Below, piece by piece: positions 3,396 through 15,149 of a stretch of 41,052 nucleotides of DNA. The stretch comes from a virus. A model generated the notes under the pieces. It worked only from the letters and a program-made list of their open reading frames with translations, did not search any database and was not told the origin of the DNA. How positions within the stretch are numbered: position 1 is the first letter of the stretch; each line of letters starts with the position of its first letter. Made by a program: the position numbers and the translations under genes. The stretch covers positions 1 through 41,052 of the IMG/VR virus record IMGVR_UViG_3300027974_000062; one strand, 5' to 3'.

Positions 3396-3423
3396 CTTAG
3401 AATACCCCCCATAGATTTGTCAA
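3396..3423 (-). promoter_or_regulatory. Sigma-70-type early promoter for the small-protein/dnaB/dcm operon
   Basis: On the minus strand TTGACA (3423-3418) is followed after 16 bases by TCTAAG (3401-3396). The -35 is a perfect consensus and the -10 matches four of six positions. The -35 box overlaps the stop codon of the RlpA-like gene, so this promoter restarts transcription at the border between the G+C-rich block and the replication operon. The palindrome just downstream supports regulation. Confidence 0.6.
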
Positions 3424-3932
3424 TACCCCCTGCGTACACCTCCTAACTCTGTGATCTCGACATACATGATGCCACGCGAGAGCGGAACCCCAAGGGCGAC
3501 CCAGAGATGCGGACTCAAATCTATGACGCGGCTCGCGCTATTCCACGGCTTCCGTAAGGCCTTCCATGCGCCGTGGCAATAATCGCGCACGACGGCGATG
3601 ACACAAGTTGTGCCACCCCGTACACACACCCGCACGCGGTACGGCTTGGCGTAGTAGGTAAAGGTACCTACGGCGGCGTAGAGCACAAGCTCCCCGCCAC
3701 GCCCGCCCCGCTCGACGCTCTTGTAGGGCGTGCAGGTATCGGTACGCCCATACACCGACACCCCTCGCGGGCATCGTGCGCCGTACCACGTAGCAACGCC
3801 AGACATAGGTACGCCGTGCGGGGTACGGGGCGGCTCCTCGGTTGCCCGCACGCCCTCGACATAGCTCAGCATGATGCACGCGACGATGAGGGCGGCTAGG
3901 CCATACGCCGCCCATATAGCCCTGCTATGCAT
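3420..3932 (-). CDS. RlpA-like secreted or anchored double-psi beta-barrel protein, 170 aa
   Basis: N-terminal signal or anchor helix (about residues 8-23, AAYGLAALIVACIMLSY), then a domain with the RlpA/DPBB pattern: SGVATWYG near residue 45, paired Cys residues, VRDYCHG, and the hallmark VIDLSPHLWVALG with a downstream GIMYVEI strand. RlpA proteins bind or cleave denuded peptidoglycan glycans; DPBB folds also occur in expansins. The ATG at 3932 is chosen because GAGG precedes it at good spacing; a TTG five codons earlier is the alternative. An early-region cell-wall protein could remodel the wall after infection. The catalytic Asp of lytic RlpA enzymes cannot be placed with confidence, so activity is uncertain. 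Confidence 0.75.
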   Translation of the reverse strand: MHSRAIWAAYGLAALIVACIMLSYVEGVRATEEPPRTPHGVPMSGVATWYGARCPRGVSVYGRTDTCTPYKSVERGGRGGELVLYAAVGTFTYYAKPYRVRVCVRGGTTCVIAVVRDYCHGAWKALRKPWNSASRVIDLSPHLWVALGVPLSRGIMYVEITELGGVRRGY

Positions 3933-4104
3933 AGATAGCCTCGTCAATCTCCTTCACAATCGCATCGCGCTCGTACCATAGCCCTACGATCACGAGCTCA
4001 ATGAGCGCCGCCCGTTGCGGGGTGGCCTCAATAAGCTCGCCAGATAGGTCAGACATGGCGCGGGTAATGCCGTCAATCTTCTTGCACTTATCTTTAAGCG
4101 TCAT
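3925..4104 (-). CDS. Small helical protein, 59 aa
   Basis: Starts MTLKDKCKKIDGITRAM at an ATG overlapping the previous stop (ATGA) and ends eight bases inside the RlpA-like gene. The chain is almost entirely amphipathic helix (LSGELIEATPQRAALIELVIVGLWYERD split by one Pro) and resembles a small coiled-coil protein. No family is recognised. Codon use is less G+C-rich than that of the genes upstream of it. Confidence 0.6.
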   Translation of the reverse strand: MTLKDKCKKIDGITRAMSDLSGELIEATPQRAALIELVIVGLWYERDAIVKEIDEAIYA

Positions 4105-4361
4105 GATCGTGCCGCCTCAATCCCCTCGCGGTAGGCCGCGATCATCATGCACGCCTCGCGTTTAGTCTTCGCGGTATAGCCCGCCGCTAAGCGACGTAGC
4201 CCGCCGCCGTCGTTGATCTGCTCAAATAGCGCGAGCGCCCCCGTAGAATCTACCGCCCGCAACTGGTACGATCCTACGCCGCCCGCGACGGGTACGCCCG
4301 CTGCTACGCATAGCCCTATGAGGGCGCGCTGCACGTCGAGCTTAGTGTATCGGTACGCCAT
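4101..4361 (-). CDS. Hypothetical protein, 86 aa, G+C-rich block
   Basis: Not recognised. ATG 4361 has TGAGGGGGT upstream. Sequence features: a basic N-terminus (MAYRYTKLDVQRALIG), a strand-turn-strand region (GGVGSYQLRAVDSTGALALF) and a C-terminal segment GYTAKTKREACMMIAAYREG. The motif GYT..KREA followed by a helix also occurs in the 56-aa protein at 4858-5028 (GYTRREAVRLFRAA), so the two may share a small alpha/beta fold and derive from one ancestor. Three bases separate it from the gene upstream. Confidence 0.6.
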   Translation of the reverse strand: MAYRYTKLDVQRALIGLCVAAGVPVAGGVGSYQLRAVDSTGALALFEQINDGGGLRRLAAGYTAKTKREACMMIAAYREGIEAARS

Positions 4362-4364
4362 GAT

Positions 4365-4685
4365 CTACACCCCCTCAATACTAGCGCGGCATGGATCGCA
4401 CGCCGCCACGATTATACCGCCGCATGTGTCGCACGATAGGCCACACCCGCCGCGATGATCCCCGCCCTCGCGGTATTCTGCCGCGTCGCCCTCGAAAATC
4501 GGCGCGGGGCTATCCGTGCAAGCGCACGAGAATCTAGGATTAAAACAGTGTGCGCAAGCTTCCGCATCGTATCGGTTATCCGCGCACGCCGTGCATAGCC
4601 CGCCGCCGTCGAGCGTATAGCCCGCGATAGCCCAAGCTTTGCCCGTATGGGCGCGGTTATAGGCCGCCGTATAGCCCGCGCTCAT
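4365..4685 (-). CDS. Cysteine-rich zinc-binding protein, 106 aa
   Basis: Eleven cysteines arranged as repeated pairs: CTACADN, CAHCF, CACTD, CGLSCDTCG and CDPC. Two to three zinc sites are likely, in a treble-clef or ribbon arrangement. ATG 4685 follows GGGAGGGG. The N-terminus (MSAGYTAAYNRAHTGKAWA) lacks a signal. The stop of the preceding gene overlaps its start (ATGA). It may be a nucleic-acid or protein-binding adaptor; no specific family is recognised. Confidence 0.65.
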   Translation of the reverse strand: MSAGYTAAYNRAHTGKAWAIAGYTLDGGGLCTACADNRYDAEACAHCFNPRFSCACTDSPAPIFEGDAAEYREGGDHRGGCGLSCDTCGGIIVAACDPCRASIEGV

Positions 4686-4861
4686 GCTACACCCCTCCCA
4701 TACGATGCCCGAAATAGCGTAATGCGATAGGCTAGCCCGTAATAGGTACGCGCCGCCGTAATCGCCTCGCGCTCAACGCGGCGAGCTTCGGCATAGGTTG
4801 CGTGTAGCGTGTCGATATCGCCGCCCGCAATGTGGCGGCGTACAATCCATCCGCCCCTCAT
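4682..4861 (-). CDS. Hypothetical basic protein, 59 aa
   Basis: Read directly: MRGGWIVRRHIAGGDIDTL, then a long Arg/Ala-rich helix (ATYAEARRVEREAITAAR) and a basic end (ITLFRASYGRGVA). The end GRGVA/AGGVA is shared with the protein at 4858-5028 because both stop codons sit in the same ribosome-site context, GGGGTGTAGCATGA. No family recognised. Both ends overlap neighbours by ATGA, which is the main argument that it is a real gene. Confidence 0.55.
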   Translation of the reverse strand: MRGGWIVRRHIAGGDIDTLHATYAEARRVEREAITAARTYYGLAYRITLFRASYGRGVA

Positions 4862-5028
4862 GCTACACCCCCCGCCCGTACCGCCGCCCTAAATAGGCGC
4901 ACGGCCTCGCGCCGCGTATAGCCTAAGAATAGGCGCGATACGTACGCGCCGCCTACCATCGCGGCGATCCGATAGCCGCCGCCGTTCACTCCCGCCGTGC
5001 GGGTGATGGTGAGCTCGATCCTGCTCAT
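4858..5028 (-). CDS. Hypothetical protein, 56 aa, starts MSRIEL
   Basis: MSRIELTITRTAGVNGGGYR is followed by VGGAYVSRLFLGYTRREAV and a helical tail. Beta-beta-beta-alpha is plausible. A strong ribosome site (GAAGGGGGTAATC) precedes the ATG and a perfect stem-loop (5048-5064) precedes that site. Two further proteins of the block begin MSRI or MSRG with a following GG-Y-strand pattern, suggesting duplication within the block. It is the first gene after a terminator-like hairpin at 5105-5130, so it may begin a new transcript. Confidence 0.6.
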   Translation of the reverse strand: MSRIELTITRTAGVNGGGYRIAAMVGGAYVSRLFLGYTRREAVRLFRAAVRAGGVA

Positions 5029-5047
5029 GATTACCCCCTTCGATTCT

Positions 5048-5064
5048 GGCGGGATTCTCCCGCC
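5048..5064 (-). promoter_or_regulatory. Stem-loop upstream of the 56-aa gene
   Basis: Perfect 7-base arms GGCGGGA / TCCCGCC around TTC, ending 20 bases before the ATG at 5028 and just before its ribosome site. It belongs to a set of three similar stem-loops placed the same way (others at 5800-5820 and 6259-6277). It could be an RNA stabiliser, an operator or a translation-control element. Confidence 0.55.
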
Positions 5065-5104
5065 CTACGCCGTACCCTACGCCTAGCGGCGCGGGGTGTC
5101 AATA

Positions 5105-5130
5105 GGGGGGCGAGCTCATGCCCGCCCCCC
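5105..5130 (-). terminator. Terminator-like hairpin after the 110-aa gene
   Basis: Arms GGGGGGCG (5105-5112) and CGCCCCCC (5123-5130) are perfectly complementary around a 10-base loop. It lies 17 bases past the stop of the gene at 5147-5479 in the direction of transcription. There is no U-tract, so termination would be inefficient or factor-dependent. Confidence 0.4.
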
Positions 5131-5146
5131 GTAGCCGTGCCGCCCC

Positions 5147-5479
5147 CTAATAGGCGGGCGGGGTGTCGATTGTGAACGCGTACCCCCCTTCGATAGCGCC
5201 CGCCGATACCAGCACGGGCGCGTAGGCGTCGCCCTCGCGCCGCATGCTATCGAGGAGCGCGAGTGCCGCCGCCGTATGACGGCCTAGCTCGTCGAGTTCA
5301 TACGGGTAGCCGATCGATATGCGGGGGCGCTTCGCCGCCCCCGCTAGGCGTGCGACAATCCGCGCCCCGCGCGTATTTGTCGCGCCGTAGTAGCGCGTAA
5401 TAATCGCGCAATGCGTGCCGCCTAGCCGTGCAGCTTCGGCGGCTACCCTTGCCGCGTCGATTGTATAGCCCCTGCTCAT
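5147..5479 (-). CDS. Hypothetical protein, 110 aa, starts MSRGYT
   Basis: Not recognised. An Ala/Arg-rich helix (IDAARVAAEAARLGG) is followed by a strand (HCAIITRYYGATNTRG), then a middle helix region ending LLDSMRREGD, and a C-terminal strand pair (YAPVLVSAGAIEGGYAFTI). Alpha/beta fold, cytoplasmic. The ATG at 5479 overlaps the stop of the preceding gene and has a G-rich ribosome site. Codons are strongly GCG/GCC/CGC-biased compared with the late genes, which prefer GCA/GCT and CGA. Confidence 0.6.
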   Translation of the reverse strand: MSRGYTIDAARVAAEAARLGGTHCAIITRYYGATNTRGARIVARLAGAAKRPRISIGYPYELDELGRHTAAALALLDSMRREGDAYAPVLVSAGAIEGGYAFTIDTPPAY

Positions 5480-5778
5480 GATCGCGCCCCCCCTCCTACT
5501 ACTAGCGCGGGGGGATTCTTTGCCCCCGTAGGGGTATATCTCCCCGCCGCTACCCTATCGGCTACCCGCTCGATCGCGGCGGCATCGTCGAGCGCCGTGA
5601 ATACGTGCTCCCCTACCAGCTTGCCGCTCGCGTATTCTTCGACGTGATAGTGCGGAAGCGCCCCGCCGTATACGTCGCCGCCGTGCGGGGCGTACCCCTC
5701 GACGGCCTCGCTATCGCATACGAGCTCGACGCTATACGCGCCGCCCTTCGTTGCCCATTGCGCTAGAATCCTGCTCAT
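5476..5778 (-). CDS. Hypothetical protein, 100 aa, starts MSRILA
   Basis: ATG 5778, preceded by TAGGGGGTGTAATC and, before that, a 9-base-arm stem-loop, is preferred to an upstream extension to 6027 that would cover the next gene. The N-terminal half is beta-rich (KGGAYSVELVCDSEA) with HYHVEEY near residue 62. The C-terminal half has a helix (LDDAAAIERVADRVAAG) and a flexible tail. No family recognised. Its N-terminus resembles the 56-aa MSRIEL protein in layout. Confidence 0.6.
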   Translation of the reverse strand: MSRILAQWATKGGAYSVELVCDSEAVEGYAPHGGDVYGGALPHYHVEEYASGKLVGEHVFTALDDAAAIERVADRVAAGRYTPTGAKNPPALVVGGGARS

Positions 5779-5799
5779 GATTACACCCCCTAAGCTATC

Positions 5800-5820
5800 G
5801 GGGCGGGATTCTCCCGCCCC
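5800..5820 (-). promoter_or_regulatory. Stem-loop upstream of the 100-aa gene
   Basis: Nine-base complementary arms, GGGGCGGGA (5800-5808) and TCCCGCCCC (5812-5820), with a TTC loop. It sits between the stop of the 53-aa gene and the ribosome site of the 100-aa gene. The core is identical to that of the stem-loop at 5048-5064. Confidence 0.55.
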
Positions 5821-5834
5821 CTTCGATTGTACGC

Positions 5835-5996
5835 CTAGCACGCCCAACCCGCAAGGGGCGGGCACGGGATCGACAACACCGCGAGCGCCCCGCCGATAAT
5901 CGCCGCCCATGCGAGGCGGCGGATCATACGGGCGCGGCGCTCCCGCGCTCGATGATCCGCCAGCGTGCGGAGTGAGGCGACGCGGTACCCCCTCAT
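5835..5996 (-). CDS. Small single-pass membrane protein, 53 aa
   Basis: Read directly: a basic N-terminus (MRGYRVASLRTLADHRARER, then more Arg) followed by a hydrophobic helix LAWAAIIGGALAVLSI and a short outside tail with two Cys (CPPLAGWAC). The Arg-rich side would stay in the cytoplasm. Its ATG overlaps the stop of the preceding gene. No family is recognised; with the anchored RlpA-like protein it makes two envelope proteins in this block. Confidence 0.6.
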   Translation of the reverse strand: MRGYRVASLRTLADHRARERRARMIRRLAWAAIIGGALAVLSIPCPPLAGWAC

Positions 5997-6238
5997 GCGT
6001 TGCACCCCTCGCCGCTACCATGCGCAAGCGCGGCGGCCTCGAGCTCGCCCGCTCGAAGCTCGATCATCGCAAGCGCGGAGCTTGCCGTGTTGCACGCTTC
6101 CCGCGCTACCGCTAGCGCCTCGATTAGCCGCCCCTGGCGGTGTTGCAGCGCGTTGCATAGGTTGCACGCTTCGCGTTGCCGCTTCGCCTCGAGCTGGTCG
6201 GGATATACGCCCAGCGTATCGGGTAGCCCCTTGGGCAT
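5993..6238 (-). CDS. Hypothetical coiled-coil protein, 81 aa; first gene of the leftward arm
   Basis: ATG 6238 follows AAGGGGGTGCATT and a stem-loop. An in-frame start at 6313 would translate through that stem-loop and is rejected. After MPKGLPDTLGVYPDQLEAK the chain is one long Ala/Arg/Glu helix with Cys residues in CNLC, suggesting a coiled coil. It is the most upstream leftward gene, facing the divergent regulatory region, and may be among the first expressed. No homologous family is recognised. Confidence 0.55.
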   Translation of the reverse strand: MPKGLPDTLGVYPDQLEAKRQREACNLCNALQHRQGRLIEALAVAREACNTASSALAMIELRAGELEAAALAHGSGEGCNA

Positions 6239-6258
6239 AATGCACCCCCTTCGATTGT

Positions 6259-6277
6259 GGCGGGGATAGCCCCCGCC
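6259..6277 (-). promoter_or_regulatory. Stem-loop upstream of the first leftward gene
   Basis: Arms GGCGGGG (6259-6265) and CCCCGCC (6271-6277) around ATAGC, 20 bases before the ATG at 6238. Third member of the upstream stem-loop set (5048-5064, 5800-5820); the linker to the ribosome site (AATCGAAGGGGGT) is shared with the first of them. Confidence 0.55.
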
Positions 6278-6346
6278 TACCAGAATCCTACACCCCCTGC
6301 ACGGGATCGACAAGGGGTCGGTAGGTTAAGAGTCCGCAACAATCCA

Positions 6347-6368
6347 GAATAGAACGGGCGTTCTATTC
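6347..6368. promoter_or_regulatory. Palindrome, probable operator
   Basis: GAATAGAAC and GTTCTATTC form perfect 9-base arms around GGGC. It stands about 110 bases upstream of the first leftward gene. On the minus strand it overlaps TTGGAA and TATTCT boxes spaced 14 bases apart, a weak promoter match. The A+T-rich arms stand out inside G+C-rich sequence. Confidence 0.5.
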
Positions 6369-6640
6369 CAATAGGGGGCTAGGGGCGACGTAGCGGGGCG
6401 ATAGGGTCGAGGGTAATGCGATCATGGCGGCGATGGGGGCTAAGGGCGTAGCGTGGCGCGTAGGCTGCAATGCGGCCAATAGCTGGATTCTGGCGGTATC
6501 GGCAAGGGGTAGCCCCTGCACGGGATCGGCTAGCCCGTCGAGGGTAGCCCTGCAACGGGGCGGGGGGTATCGGGTACGGCTAGGGGGTAGCCCTGCAACG
6601 GGTAGGGGGTATCGCCTACCCTGCCCGCCCCTACCCCCCC

Positions 6641-6678
6641 GACAAGGGCGCTTGTCCTACTCGACAAGGGCGCTTGTC
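6641..6678. repeat. Two tandem copies of a 16-base palindrome
   Basis: GACAAGGGCGCTTGTC occurs at 6641-6656 and again at 6663-6678, exactly 22 bases apart, about two helical turns. Each copy has 6-base complementary arms around GGCG. This arrangement suits cooperative binding of a dimeric regulator on one face of the DNA. Confidence 0.6.
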
Positions 6679-6683
6679 GTAGG

Positions 6684-6700
6684 TTGGCACGATTTATGCC
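6684..6700 (+). promoter_or_regulatory. Sigma-54-like -24/-12 sequence
   Basis: TTGGCACGATTTATGCC matches the -24 element (TTGGCACG) perfectly and the -12 element (TTGC) at three of four positions with the right spacing. It begins six bases after the tandem palindromes. Phage use of sigma-54 would be unusual, and a chance match in 800 bases is quite possible. Confidence 0.3.
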
Positions 6701-6870
6701 GCCCCCCTCCCCCCGTAGCAAGTCTGGCGGGCGGGGCGTGCGGGGTAGGAATACCCAACCCCGCAATGAACACCCCTTCTGATAAGGCCACCCCCCTTTT
6801 GAGAAGGGTTTCACCCCAATCTGTTAACGAAACCCTGTTAAGTTGTGCTCAACAGCCTCCCTCATAAAGG

Positions 6871-6884
6871 TTAAGACATCTTAA
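6871..6884. promoter_or_regulatory. Short palindrome ahead of the late promoter
   Basis: TTAAGA-CA-TCTTAA, a perfect inverted repeat, lies 12 bases before a TTGACA box. Related GTTAA words occur just upstream (GTTAACG at about 6822, GTTAAG at about 6837), so this may be a regulator-binding cluster. Confidence 0.35.
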
Positions 6885-6895
6885 TGATGTTATTT

Positions 6896-6928
6896 TTGAC
6901 ATAAACCCCCCGTTTTTCTGGTTATATG
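6896..6928 (+). promoter_or_regulatory. Candidate promoter of the rightward arm
   Basis: Perfect -35 TTGACA at 6896-6901. The A+T-rich -10 candidates (TTATAT 6922-6927 or TATATG 6923-6928) are 20-21 bases away, longer than the usual 17, so the match is imperfect. It is the best-placed promoter for the gene at 7045 and would produce a leader of about 110 bases. Confidence 0.4.
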
Positions 6929-6949
6929 GGGGAGACACAGAGGGGGCAA

Positions 6950-7032
6950 CGAACTCACCCTCCGTAAGAACGGTCTCTCACTCAATAGAGTTCGCTCTGG
7001 CCGCTAGGCCAGATTAAGAATGGGGAAACCCA
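6950..7032 (+). ncRNA. Structured 5' leader of the rightward transcript
   Basis: Successive perfect stems are visible. CGAACTC (6950-6956) pairs with GAGTTCG (6988-6994) and encloses CCGT-AAGA-ACGG (6962-6973). CTGGCC-GCTA-GGCCAG follows (6997-7012), then TGGG-GAAA-CCCA (7021-7032), a GNRA tetraloop that ends two bases before the ribosome site GGAG (7034-7037). No known riboswitch class was recognised. It may stabilise the late mRNA or control the first gene's translation. Confidence 0.5.
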
Positions 7033-13354: not shown

Positions 13355-13653
13355 TGCCAAAGAGTGCCGCATGGCAACGCAAAGAGGGAAAGAGCGCATC
13401 TGGTGGCCTGAACGCCAAGGGACGCGCCTCCTATAAGGCGCAAACTGGCGGCACACTTAAGGCTCCAGTCAAGAGCGGAGATAATCCGCGACGAGCCTCT
13501 TTCCTCGCCCGTATGGGCGGTATGCCTGGTCCTGAGCGCGACGAGAAAGGTCGACCGACGCGCTTGCTCCTTAGCCTTCAGGCTTGGGGCGCCAGCAGCA
13601 AGACGGATGCCCGTGCAAAGGCAGCCGCGATCAGCAAGCGCAACAAGGCTTGA
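13354..13653 (+). CDS. DUF6321-like basic phage protein, 99 aa
   Basis: The sequence MPKSAAWQRKEGKS, then GGLNAKGRASYKAQTGGTLK, matches the conserved pattern (SAAW.RKEGK..SGGLNAKGRASY) of small phage proteins annotated as DUF6321. The second half has RRASFLARMGGMPGP and ends in a Lys-rich tail. These are usually encoded beside the large terminase, as here. It is strongly basic and may bind DNA during packaging; this is inference. It starts at a TAATG junction, and its TGA overlaps the TTG start of terL. Confidence 0.8.
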   Translation: MPKSAAWQRKEGKSASGGLNAKGRASYKAQTGGTLKAPVKSGDNPRRASFLARMGGMPGPERDEKGRPTRLLLSLQAWGASSKTDARAKAAAISKRNKA

Positions 13654-15149
13654 AGCAACTAGCCAATGAAGTTGCGGTCGATCTGGCTCGTGGTCGCTCT
13701 GACATCGAGTTCTTTGCTCGCAGGTGGCTTGGCATTGAAGGGAATCCAGGGCAGGTTGCATGGTGGAAGTCCTGCTCCGAGCGTGACGAATCTGGGTACC
13801 GACCGAAATACATCACAACCGTCGTATCCGCTGGCAACCGTGCGGGTAAAACGATGGCAATGGCGGTGGTCTGTTTCCACCACGCCTTGTACAAACTGGG
13901 ACTTCCAAACCCGAAATATGGTGATTCCAAGTCCCATCTTGAGTGGCTGGACTCCCCCTACGAATGGTTCCACATTGGTATCCAGCAGGAGACCGCAGAG
14001 CTAGTCTTCCGAGAGATTGAGACCATCCTCACTGGCCAGCACCCCGCCCAAAAAGGTCGTGGTTGCCCAATGGTCACAGAACTTGGTAAGATTGTAGAGA
14101 CCACCAAGAAGTATCGCGGTGAGTATCCGTGGATCAAGTTCAACCCCATCGTTGGTGGGGCAAGCATCCACTTCCGCACCACGCAGGATCGAGCGAAGGC
14201 TCTCCTTGGTAAGGATATGAACGGCATCTCGTTTGACGAAGCGGCGTTTGAGCCGCACTTGCTGATGATCTACCAAGAGGTGCTGAACCTACGACGACTC
14301 TCCACTGGCGGACCACTCCACTTCATTGGAACGCCGACCGAGGGGTTCAACGAATACGCTGATCTGTGGGAGAAGGGAAACCCCGACAACCCAGAGCGCG
14401 ACTCCAAGTTCATCTCGTTCCGATTATCCACACGGGCTAACATCGGCTACGGATTGACCCAAGAGAACTTTGATGATGTTGTTCGCCAGCAGGCTGAGTA
14501 CCTCATCCCCCAGAACATTGACGGATTCTTCATTGAGGCACGAGACGCATTCTTCTGGTCTCAATCCATTCAGGCAGTATTCAAATCAGGAGTCGAAGAG
14601 TTAGGCCCGACACGTCACCATAAGTATGTCCAGGGTGTAGACCCAGGGATTTCACATGACGCAACGTGGGCGATTACACTCGACATTACTGACAGAAAAC
14701 TCCTTCGCGGCACGCGGATTAGAAAGCGTGGCGGCAAGCAGAGCATCTCTGCCGTCGTGAACATGGTCCGCGAAGGACATCTCCTCTACCAACAGGACGG
14801 TGCGTACTGCACCACAATCGTTGATTCCACAGGACTTGGTGGACGACTATTTCAACAGGAGTTCAGCATCATCCGTCCGCTCCGAGGGTTTGACTTCGGT
14901 GGCACTAAGGCGAAGAAGGTGGAACTCCTTAACGACTTGAAGGCGGTTCTAGACAAAGGACAAATCGAACTGCCAACTGGCGGTGCGTGGGATGAGATGC
15001 GCAGGCAACTCCTTACCTACAAATTAGACGATAAGAAGCTGGAGCAAGATGCAGTGATGGCACTGGCCATTGCTGTGCGACACGCTTTGCGAAACCCAGA
15101 GAAGCCCGTGAACGATCCAGTGTTCACATATTTTGGAGTGAGTGACTGA
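13650..15149 (+). CDS. terL: Terminase large subunit, 499 aa
   Basis: DNA-packaging motor ATPase with a nuclease domain. Walker A SAGNRAGKT at residues 60-68, Walker B GISFDEAAF near 192-200. The RNase H-like nuclease has Asp331 in GVDPGISHD, an acidic residue in IVDSTGLGG near 392, and a late DAVMALAIAV helix near 467. I chose the TTG at 13650, which overlaps the previous TGA as other starts in this phage do; a longer frame from 13584 lies wholly inside the preceding gene. Length is normal for TerL. It cuts and pumps concatemeric DNA through the portal encoded next (TGATG junction). Confidence 0.93.
   Translation: MKQLANEVAVDLARGRSDIEFFARRWLGIEGNPGQVAWWKSCSERDESGYRPKYITTVVSAGNRAGKTMAMAVVCFHHALYKLGLPNPKYGDSKSHLEWLDSPYEWFHIGIQQETAELVFREIETILTGQHPAQKGRGCPMVTELGKIVETTKKYRGEYPWIKFNPIVGGASIHFRTTQDRAKALLGKDMNGISFDEAAFEPHLLMIYQEVLNLRRLSTGGPLHFIGTPTEGFNEYADLWEKGNPDNPERDSKFISFRLSTRANIGYGLTQENFDDVVRQQAEYLIPQNIDGFFIEARDAFFWSQSIQAVFKSGVEELGPTRHHKYVQGVDPGISHDATWAITLDITDRKLLRGTRIRKRGGKQSISAVVNMVREGHLLYQQDGAYCTTIVDSTGLGGRLFQQEFSIIRPLRGFDFGGTKAKKVELLNDLKAVLDKGQIELPTGGAWDEMRRQLLTYKLDDKKLEQDAVMALAIAVRHALRNPEKPVNDPVFTYFGVSD

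Follow-up and report, generated by a model that had tools for sequence, protein, structure and literature searches.

In T4-type phages, PeSL cassettes combine a promoter and a stem-loop at the borders of exchanged genes, and the T7 gene 10 leader carries a stabilising stem-loop at its 5' terminus. The ompA and papA mRNAs are stabilised by 5' stem-loops in work cited in excerpts of a review (PMC3997798). Clustered hammerhead ribozymes flanking phage genes have already been described, and the excerpted 2011 discovery paper proposed that they process transcripts into gene-length mRNAs, noted a halovirus transcript end near a hammerhead cleavage site and left the function of the phage arrays open (PMC3088659). 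The SAS of cluster K mycobacteriophages and the ESAS of cluster EF Microbacterium phages are conserved ribosome-site sequences with, in cluster K, an inverted repeat upstream; the ESAS repeats have imperfect 17-bp arms for which the authors found little support as mRNA hairpins (excerpts of PMC3203893 and PMC7302621). Cluster O mycobacteriophages carry dispersed 17-bp palindromes of 7-3-7 layout, and recombination between copies has been proposed (excerpts of PMC4351075).

We compared these systems with a hairpin element in a 41,052-base IMG/VR virus record, which was analysed over its whole length and is called the window below. By layout, SAS/ESAS is the nearest described phage feature: a conserved element likewise stands before genes of many families (excerpts of PMC3203893 and PMC7302621), here 15. 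Membership of that class was rejected because the consensus is absent, with no match at the ribosome site to either form of the 13-bp sequence, GGGATAGGAGCCC or GGGAAAGGACCCC, at up to 2 mismatches each; unlike the window leaders, SAS and ESAS are given no link to a promoter in the passages concerned (PMC3203893, PMC7302621). Whereas the cluster O palindromes are described in the excerpts as having invariant arms and no tie to translation starts (PMC4351075), hairpins of the window type accompany starts and differ among themselves in loop and in stem length. The likeness to ompA and papA lies in a 5'-terminal stem-loop, here predicted, followed by an open ribosome site, but the window element is repeated before many small phage genes at a fixed distance from a promoter, and its effect on half-life is putative. 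PeSL cassettes may be similar in layout and gene exchange to what is seen here; our literature search found no paper on the T4-type cassettes. Type II hammerhead arrays (RF02276; excerpts of PMC3088659) share the kind of gene border, a hairpin near the message 5' end and a similar distance to the ATG; the window hairpins differ in lacking a catalytic core and in standing behind a promoter.

Hairpins and promoter-like pairs in the window

The window derives from an uncultured lake-phage family. Its rightward structural operon includes the genes for a large terminase (13584-15149, phrog_2), capsid and tail; from 6238 down, small genes form a leftward block, most of them without a family match. 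G+C in the leader-bearing part of the block (4001-7000) is 61-67% per kb, compared to 48-59% in the rightward genes. In the divergent intergenic region, the palindrome GACAAGGGCGCTTGTC lies within each of two nearly identical 20-nt copies at 6640-6681, adjoined by G-rich direct repeats at 6495-6619, and a plus-strand hairpin (TCTGGCC-GCTA-GGCCAGA, 6996-7013) precedes the first rightward gene (7045) and has counterparts in relatives such as L112, L114 and L123.

An earlier note on this DNA had reported three stem-loops at 5048-5064, 5800-5820 and 6259-6277, with a linker common to the first and third, and had interpreted them as a common post-transcriptional control or mRNA-stabilising element. 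The stem-loops were borne out, placed exactly and far beyond chance; they are given here with two further hairpins and the linker copies.

5048..5064, minus strand: stem-loop 1, GGCGGGA-GAA-TCCCGCC, 7 bp, loop GAA, before the gene starting at 5028
5800..5820, minus strand: stem-loop 2, GGGGCGGGA-GAA-TCCCGCCCC, 9 bp, loop GAA, before the gene starting at 5778
6259..6277, minus strand: stem-loop 3, GGCGGGG-GCTAT-CCCCGCC, 7 bp, loop GCTAT, before the gene starting at 6238
5511..5531, minus strand: weaker hairpin, 6 bp, loop of 9, before the gene at 5479 and within the upstream gene
5105..5130, minus strand: additional GC hairpin, after the 5479 gene's stop and before the 5028 gene's promoter-like pair
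5035..5045, minus strand: linker AATCGAAGGGG, exact, part of the Shine-Dalgarno of the 5028 gene
6246..6256, minus strand: linker AATCGAAGGGG, exact, part of the Shine-Dalgarno of the 6238 gene
5818..5828, minus strand: third AATCGAAGGGG copy, on the upstream side of stem 2 and overlapping the -10 region

Stem-loops 1-3 lie 19-21 nt 5' of the ATG at 5028, 5778 and 6238. Eight minus-strand hairpins in the 41-kb window have at least 7 bp and at least 6 G-C pairs, and these three are the ones that sit in gene gaps of the leftward block. RNA folds of the leaders retained the hairpin and left the ribosome site unpaired with the stem-loop. Compared to shuffles, the whole-leader folds were more stable for leader 1 (z -3.2) and leader 2 (z -2.8) and no better for the third (z -0.3). 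The hairpin at 5105-5130 is strong (fold z -4.3 for 5104-5129) and has counterparts in relatives; the weaker one at 5511-5531 has no -10 at 4-9 nt.

The linker proved to be shared exactly by the first and third elements, where 0.67 matches to AATCGAAGGGG with no more than 1 mismatch would be expected in the window. Its portion AAGGGGGU can pair over 8 nt, with one G-U, with the anti-Shine-Dalgarno at the 3' end of 16S rRNA, so that much of the linker is a plain strong Shine-Dalgarno. Taken as part of the shared element, the linker is for the most part Shine-Dalgarno; it stands downstream of stems 1 and 3 but on the upstream side of stem 2.

A promoter-like pair, which the earlier note did not mention, stands just upstream of each stem-loop.

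5074..5102, minus strand: TTGACA-17-TAGGGT, ending 9 nt before stem-loop 1
5826..5854, minus strand: TTGCGG-17-TACAAT, ending 5 nt before stem-loop 2 and overlapping the 3' end of gene 5996-5835
6285..6313, minus strand: TTGTCG-17-TAGGAT, ending 7 nt before stem-loop 3, at the start of the leftward block

With this placement, transcription should start at the hairpin or within about 2 bases of it, and the predicted mRNAs should open with a 5'-terminal stem-loop followed by an open stretch, the Shine-Dalgarno and the ATG. The window-wide count used a loose motif with its own controls: TTGnnn-N16-18-TAnnnT matched 47 times on both strands of the 41-kb window, and exactly three of the 47 have a GC hairpin 2-10 nt further on, namely the three stem-loops. 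Shuffling the block gave a mean of 0.007 such pairs (maximum 1 in 300 rounds), and shifting the promoter set relative to the hairpin set gave a mean of 0.08 (maximum 2), with none of 5000 shifts reaching 3. A generic sigma-70 scan of the window listed none of the three pairs because their hexamers are weak. The -35/-10 spacer of the TTGACA promoter (5080-5096, minus strand) holds a dyad of its own, CGCC-GCTA-GGCG, whose arms change together in relatives when compared by eye (CGCC-GCTA-GGCG, GCCC-GGTA-GGGC, CCCC-GCTA-GGGG).

Leaders across the phage family

The window terminase had no match among 50,697 phage records and 145 relatives among viral contigs; 80 of the 145 were kept, and the relatives' leftward blocks were retrieved for comparison. 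The same code, used throughout, found 42 hairpin leaders in 13 family blocks, which have 71 gaps of 40 nt or longer; because the leader count admits gaps from 35 nt upward, the two numbers form no strict fraction. L121 and L126 are near-identical among these blocks. Random in-gene points gave 6 matches in 480. At 59 loci of another phage group with similar G+C, which have 72 gaps of at least 40 nt, neither a hairpin leader nor a hammerhead-like leader was found; as these loci were reached from the 3947-type gene and belong to another group, they test specificity and cannot serve as a hold-out for the promoter motif. With 42 leaders in the family blocks against none at the outside loci, the view of a repeated, identically placed and conserved RNA element before genes was upheld. 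The gene at 3420-3947 (minus strand) has a weak lytic-transglycolase-type (DPBB) match, and its relatives at the 59 loci lie in a different gene neighbourhood.

Hairpin leaders stand before at least 15 gene families in the 13 blocks, which argues for a portable leader and not for terminators. A hairpin leader follows the 5996-type gene in 9 of 9 blocks, and the next gene comes from four families (in L115 the 5996-type gene was mis-called and was identified by tblastn on the same contig). Similarly, the 5028-type gene has the TTGACA-TAGGGT-hairpin leader in 9 of 9 cases, and the same leader also precedes other genes in L121, L122, L124 and L126. Outside the family, the P-element pattern matched 20 stretches, 9 of them new (seven near copies of one sequence, one a close variant or unrelated); none had a match to the window query genes and they were taken as chance. 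In the genome collection, one stretch, from a Nitrospira assembly (L109), has an exact copy of the hairpin together with a ribosome-like site and an ATG.

The initial set held 62 hairpin rows. For the count of full promoter pairs 5 were removed by hand, leaving 57 rows in 33 clusters, and for the TAnnnT count 9 of the 62 were removed, leaving 53 rows in 30 clusters, the same 53 rows serving for the gene families and the stem comparison; removed rows lay in coding sequence, preceded doubtful gene calls or were not of GC type. The full pair was present in 13 of 33 leader clusters compared to 0.28 expected (maximum 2 in 1000 shuffles), a result that is no independent test because the relatives overlap the sequences in which the motif was first spotted, and in which the clusters are not all independent since the TTGACA-TAGGGT element recurs across several of them. 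One of the 13 (L121 8098) has the promoter pair and was removed from the later counts. In 16 of 30 clusters TAnnnT stands 4-9 nt ahead of the hairpin, the commonest distance being exactly 7 nt (6 clusters), whereas 29 control positions 12-40 nt upstream gave 8 matches in total. TAnnnT is absent at this distance from the remaining 14 clusters, of which two are hammerhead sites, and a transcript start therefore cannot account for all the hairpins.

We compared 25 distinct hairpins across the relatives. The core GGCGG/CCGCC was nearly invariant, one inner pair alternated between G-C and C-G, and outer pairs were gained and lost together on both sides. Loops ranged from 3 to 9 nt, and triloops occurred in one orientation only (GAA, CAA, TGA, AAA). 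This pattern amounts to moderate but not strong covariation of the stem, and the varying distance between the arms argues against recognition by a rigid protein dimer.

Type II hammerheads in near relatives

The corresponding block of relatives contained 16 matches to type II hammerheads (RF02276), 11 of them over the Rfam cut-off, in 4 of 50 records. The over-cut-off covariance-model matches have the core CUGAYGAG, GAAA and GUH. Arrays of 2-5 stand before leftward-block genes in L118, L120, L144 and L145 (G009, G011, G022 and G019), and as G011 and G019 are near-identical, 11 distinct sites were counted. All 11 are followed by a ribosome site and an ATG; eight start at TAG, which in four cases is the exact end of the called upstream gene. 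GUC or GUA precedes stem I in 10 of the 11, which are those with a measurable stem I, and lies 45-59 nt from the ATG; in the plain hairpin leaders, 33-59 nt separate the hairpin base from the ATG. Given this spacing, a cleaved message would have a stem-loop at its start or no more than a few bases from it and continue into a ribosome site, the layout that is predicted for the window mRNAs. The hammerhead product would have a 5'-OH, with a hairpin close to that end.

An early block gene of the hammerhead record G022 has an apparent promoter and hairpin, seen by eye (TTGACA-17-TAGGCT-7-[GACGCTG...CAGCGTC]). A terminase tree places the hairpin record L049 as sister to L046 and L044, both hammerhead records (support 0.996), and L032, with hammerheads, as sister to L033, with a single known hairpin leader (support 1.000). 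The two kinds are thus interleaved on this tree; as it is of the terminase only, the interleaving would also arise if entire blocks were exchanged. Hammerhead arrays are widespread among viral contigs: a pattern for TAG-starting hammerheads matched at least 120 stretches, some with arrays of 3 to 5.

No Rfam covariance model detected a hammerhead in the window. An origin of the window hairpins from degraded hammerheads, considered from their CGAAG and CGATAG flanks, was rejected because the bases of the core are not the same and conservation is missing on the upstream side.

Explanations for the hairpin leader

We consider it probable that the hairpins are 5'-terminal structures that protect the mRNA and belong to a shuffled cassette of promoter and leader, exchange of the cassette being a companion process. 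A host-polymerase-type promoter (TTGnnn-17-TAnnnT) directly upstream would start transcription at the hairpin or within about 2 bases, and the mRNA would open with a GC hairpin of 7-9 bp, after which some 20 bases would carry a strong ribosome site and lead to the ATG. The terminal hairpin may then deny single-stranded entry to 5'-end-dependent decay (RppH, RNase E or RNase J) while the ribosome site stays open beside it, and promoter, hairpin and ribosome site would move, by recombination, as one leader cassette before changing genes. Bacillus RppH needs at least 2 unpaired 5' nucleotides (excerpts of the review PMC3997798), and a start at the hairpin base would leave few unpaired 5' bases on these mRNAs. 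Judged from the sequence, the mRNA-stabilising idea fits, since the promoter-like element would put the transcript start at the hairpin. Common post-transcriptional control is too narrow on its own: the shared, placed RNA element is there, but with a promoter-like pair preceding its hairpin each element would begin a separate transcript. The earlier interpretation as a whole is thus partly supported.

A different function for the palindrome would be that of a DNA operator, in which a phage or host repressor bound to GGCGG and CCGCC half-sites over +1 shuts the leftward promoters. An inverted repeat spanning +1 to +20 occupies a classic operator position, the core is nearly constant among the 25 distinct hairpins, and the TTGACA promoters have a spacer dyad too. 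We nevertheless regard an operator as unlikely, as the half-site spacing shifts by several bases even inside the window (7 and 9 nt), loops vary from 3 to 9 nt with triloops held in one orientation, many hairpins have no adjoining promoter and hammerheads occupy similar places in relatives. That the hairpins serve mainly as recombination junctions, where sequence shared between genes allows accessory genes to be swapped as in PeSL cassettes, would account for one leader standing before unrelated genes and for the 9 of 9 blocks with a leader after the 5996-type gene yet four families of next gene. Homology alone, however, would neither preserve pairing while stem length and loop vary nor fix the distances to promoter and ATG, and as the main function we find this quite improbable; it can be compatible with the protective-cassette explanation.

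The earlier note had named terminators of the preceding genes as the alternative to a shared control element. Hairpins do lie close behind stop codons in several gaps, and some bacteria terminate without a T-run, but the stems have no T-run, the terminator scan lists none of the three, and with a promoter upstream of the hairpin its own transcript would be stopped. The terminator reading was rejected on the missing T-run and the scan; terminators or attenuators of preceding genes are, in our judgement, very unlikely. Least expected of all is a riboswitch or RNA thermometer controlling ribosome access, to which we give hardly any weight: a sub-threshold ROSE match (35.5 bits, cut-off 45) lies at 5066-5161 on the minus strand but spans the promoter-spacer and post-stop hairpins instead of the stem-loop with its ribosome site, and the stem-loops are unpaired with the ribosome site in the folds. 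No known RNA family in Rfam matched over its cut-off in the window, and the weak ROSE, microRNA and IRES matches were taken as chance.

To return to the proposed protective hairpin on a mobile leader, promoter-hairpin leaders and hammerheads occupy similar gene borders among closely related phages, which suggests that they share a product, namely a message starting with a hairpin followed by an open ribosome site. As a tentative possibility, one phage family may have two interchangeable routes to stem-loop-starting messages, a promoter placed at the hairpin or a type II hammerhead cutting 5' of stem I. A literature search, mostly at title level, found no description of promoter-hairpin leaders interchanging with hammerheads. 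With two routes interleaved on the tree, selection would act on the hairpin-capped 5' end itself. The reason why phage hammerheads are lined up between genes is not settled, and the two-route reading, if true, would give these arrays a function. For the uncultured family, the leader is a marker of the accessory-gene block, and it represents a compact natural leader that precedes many different genes.
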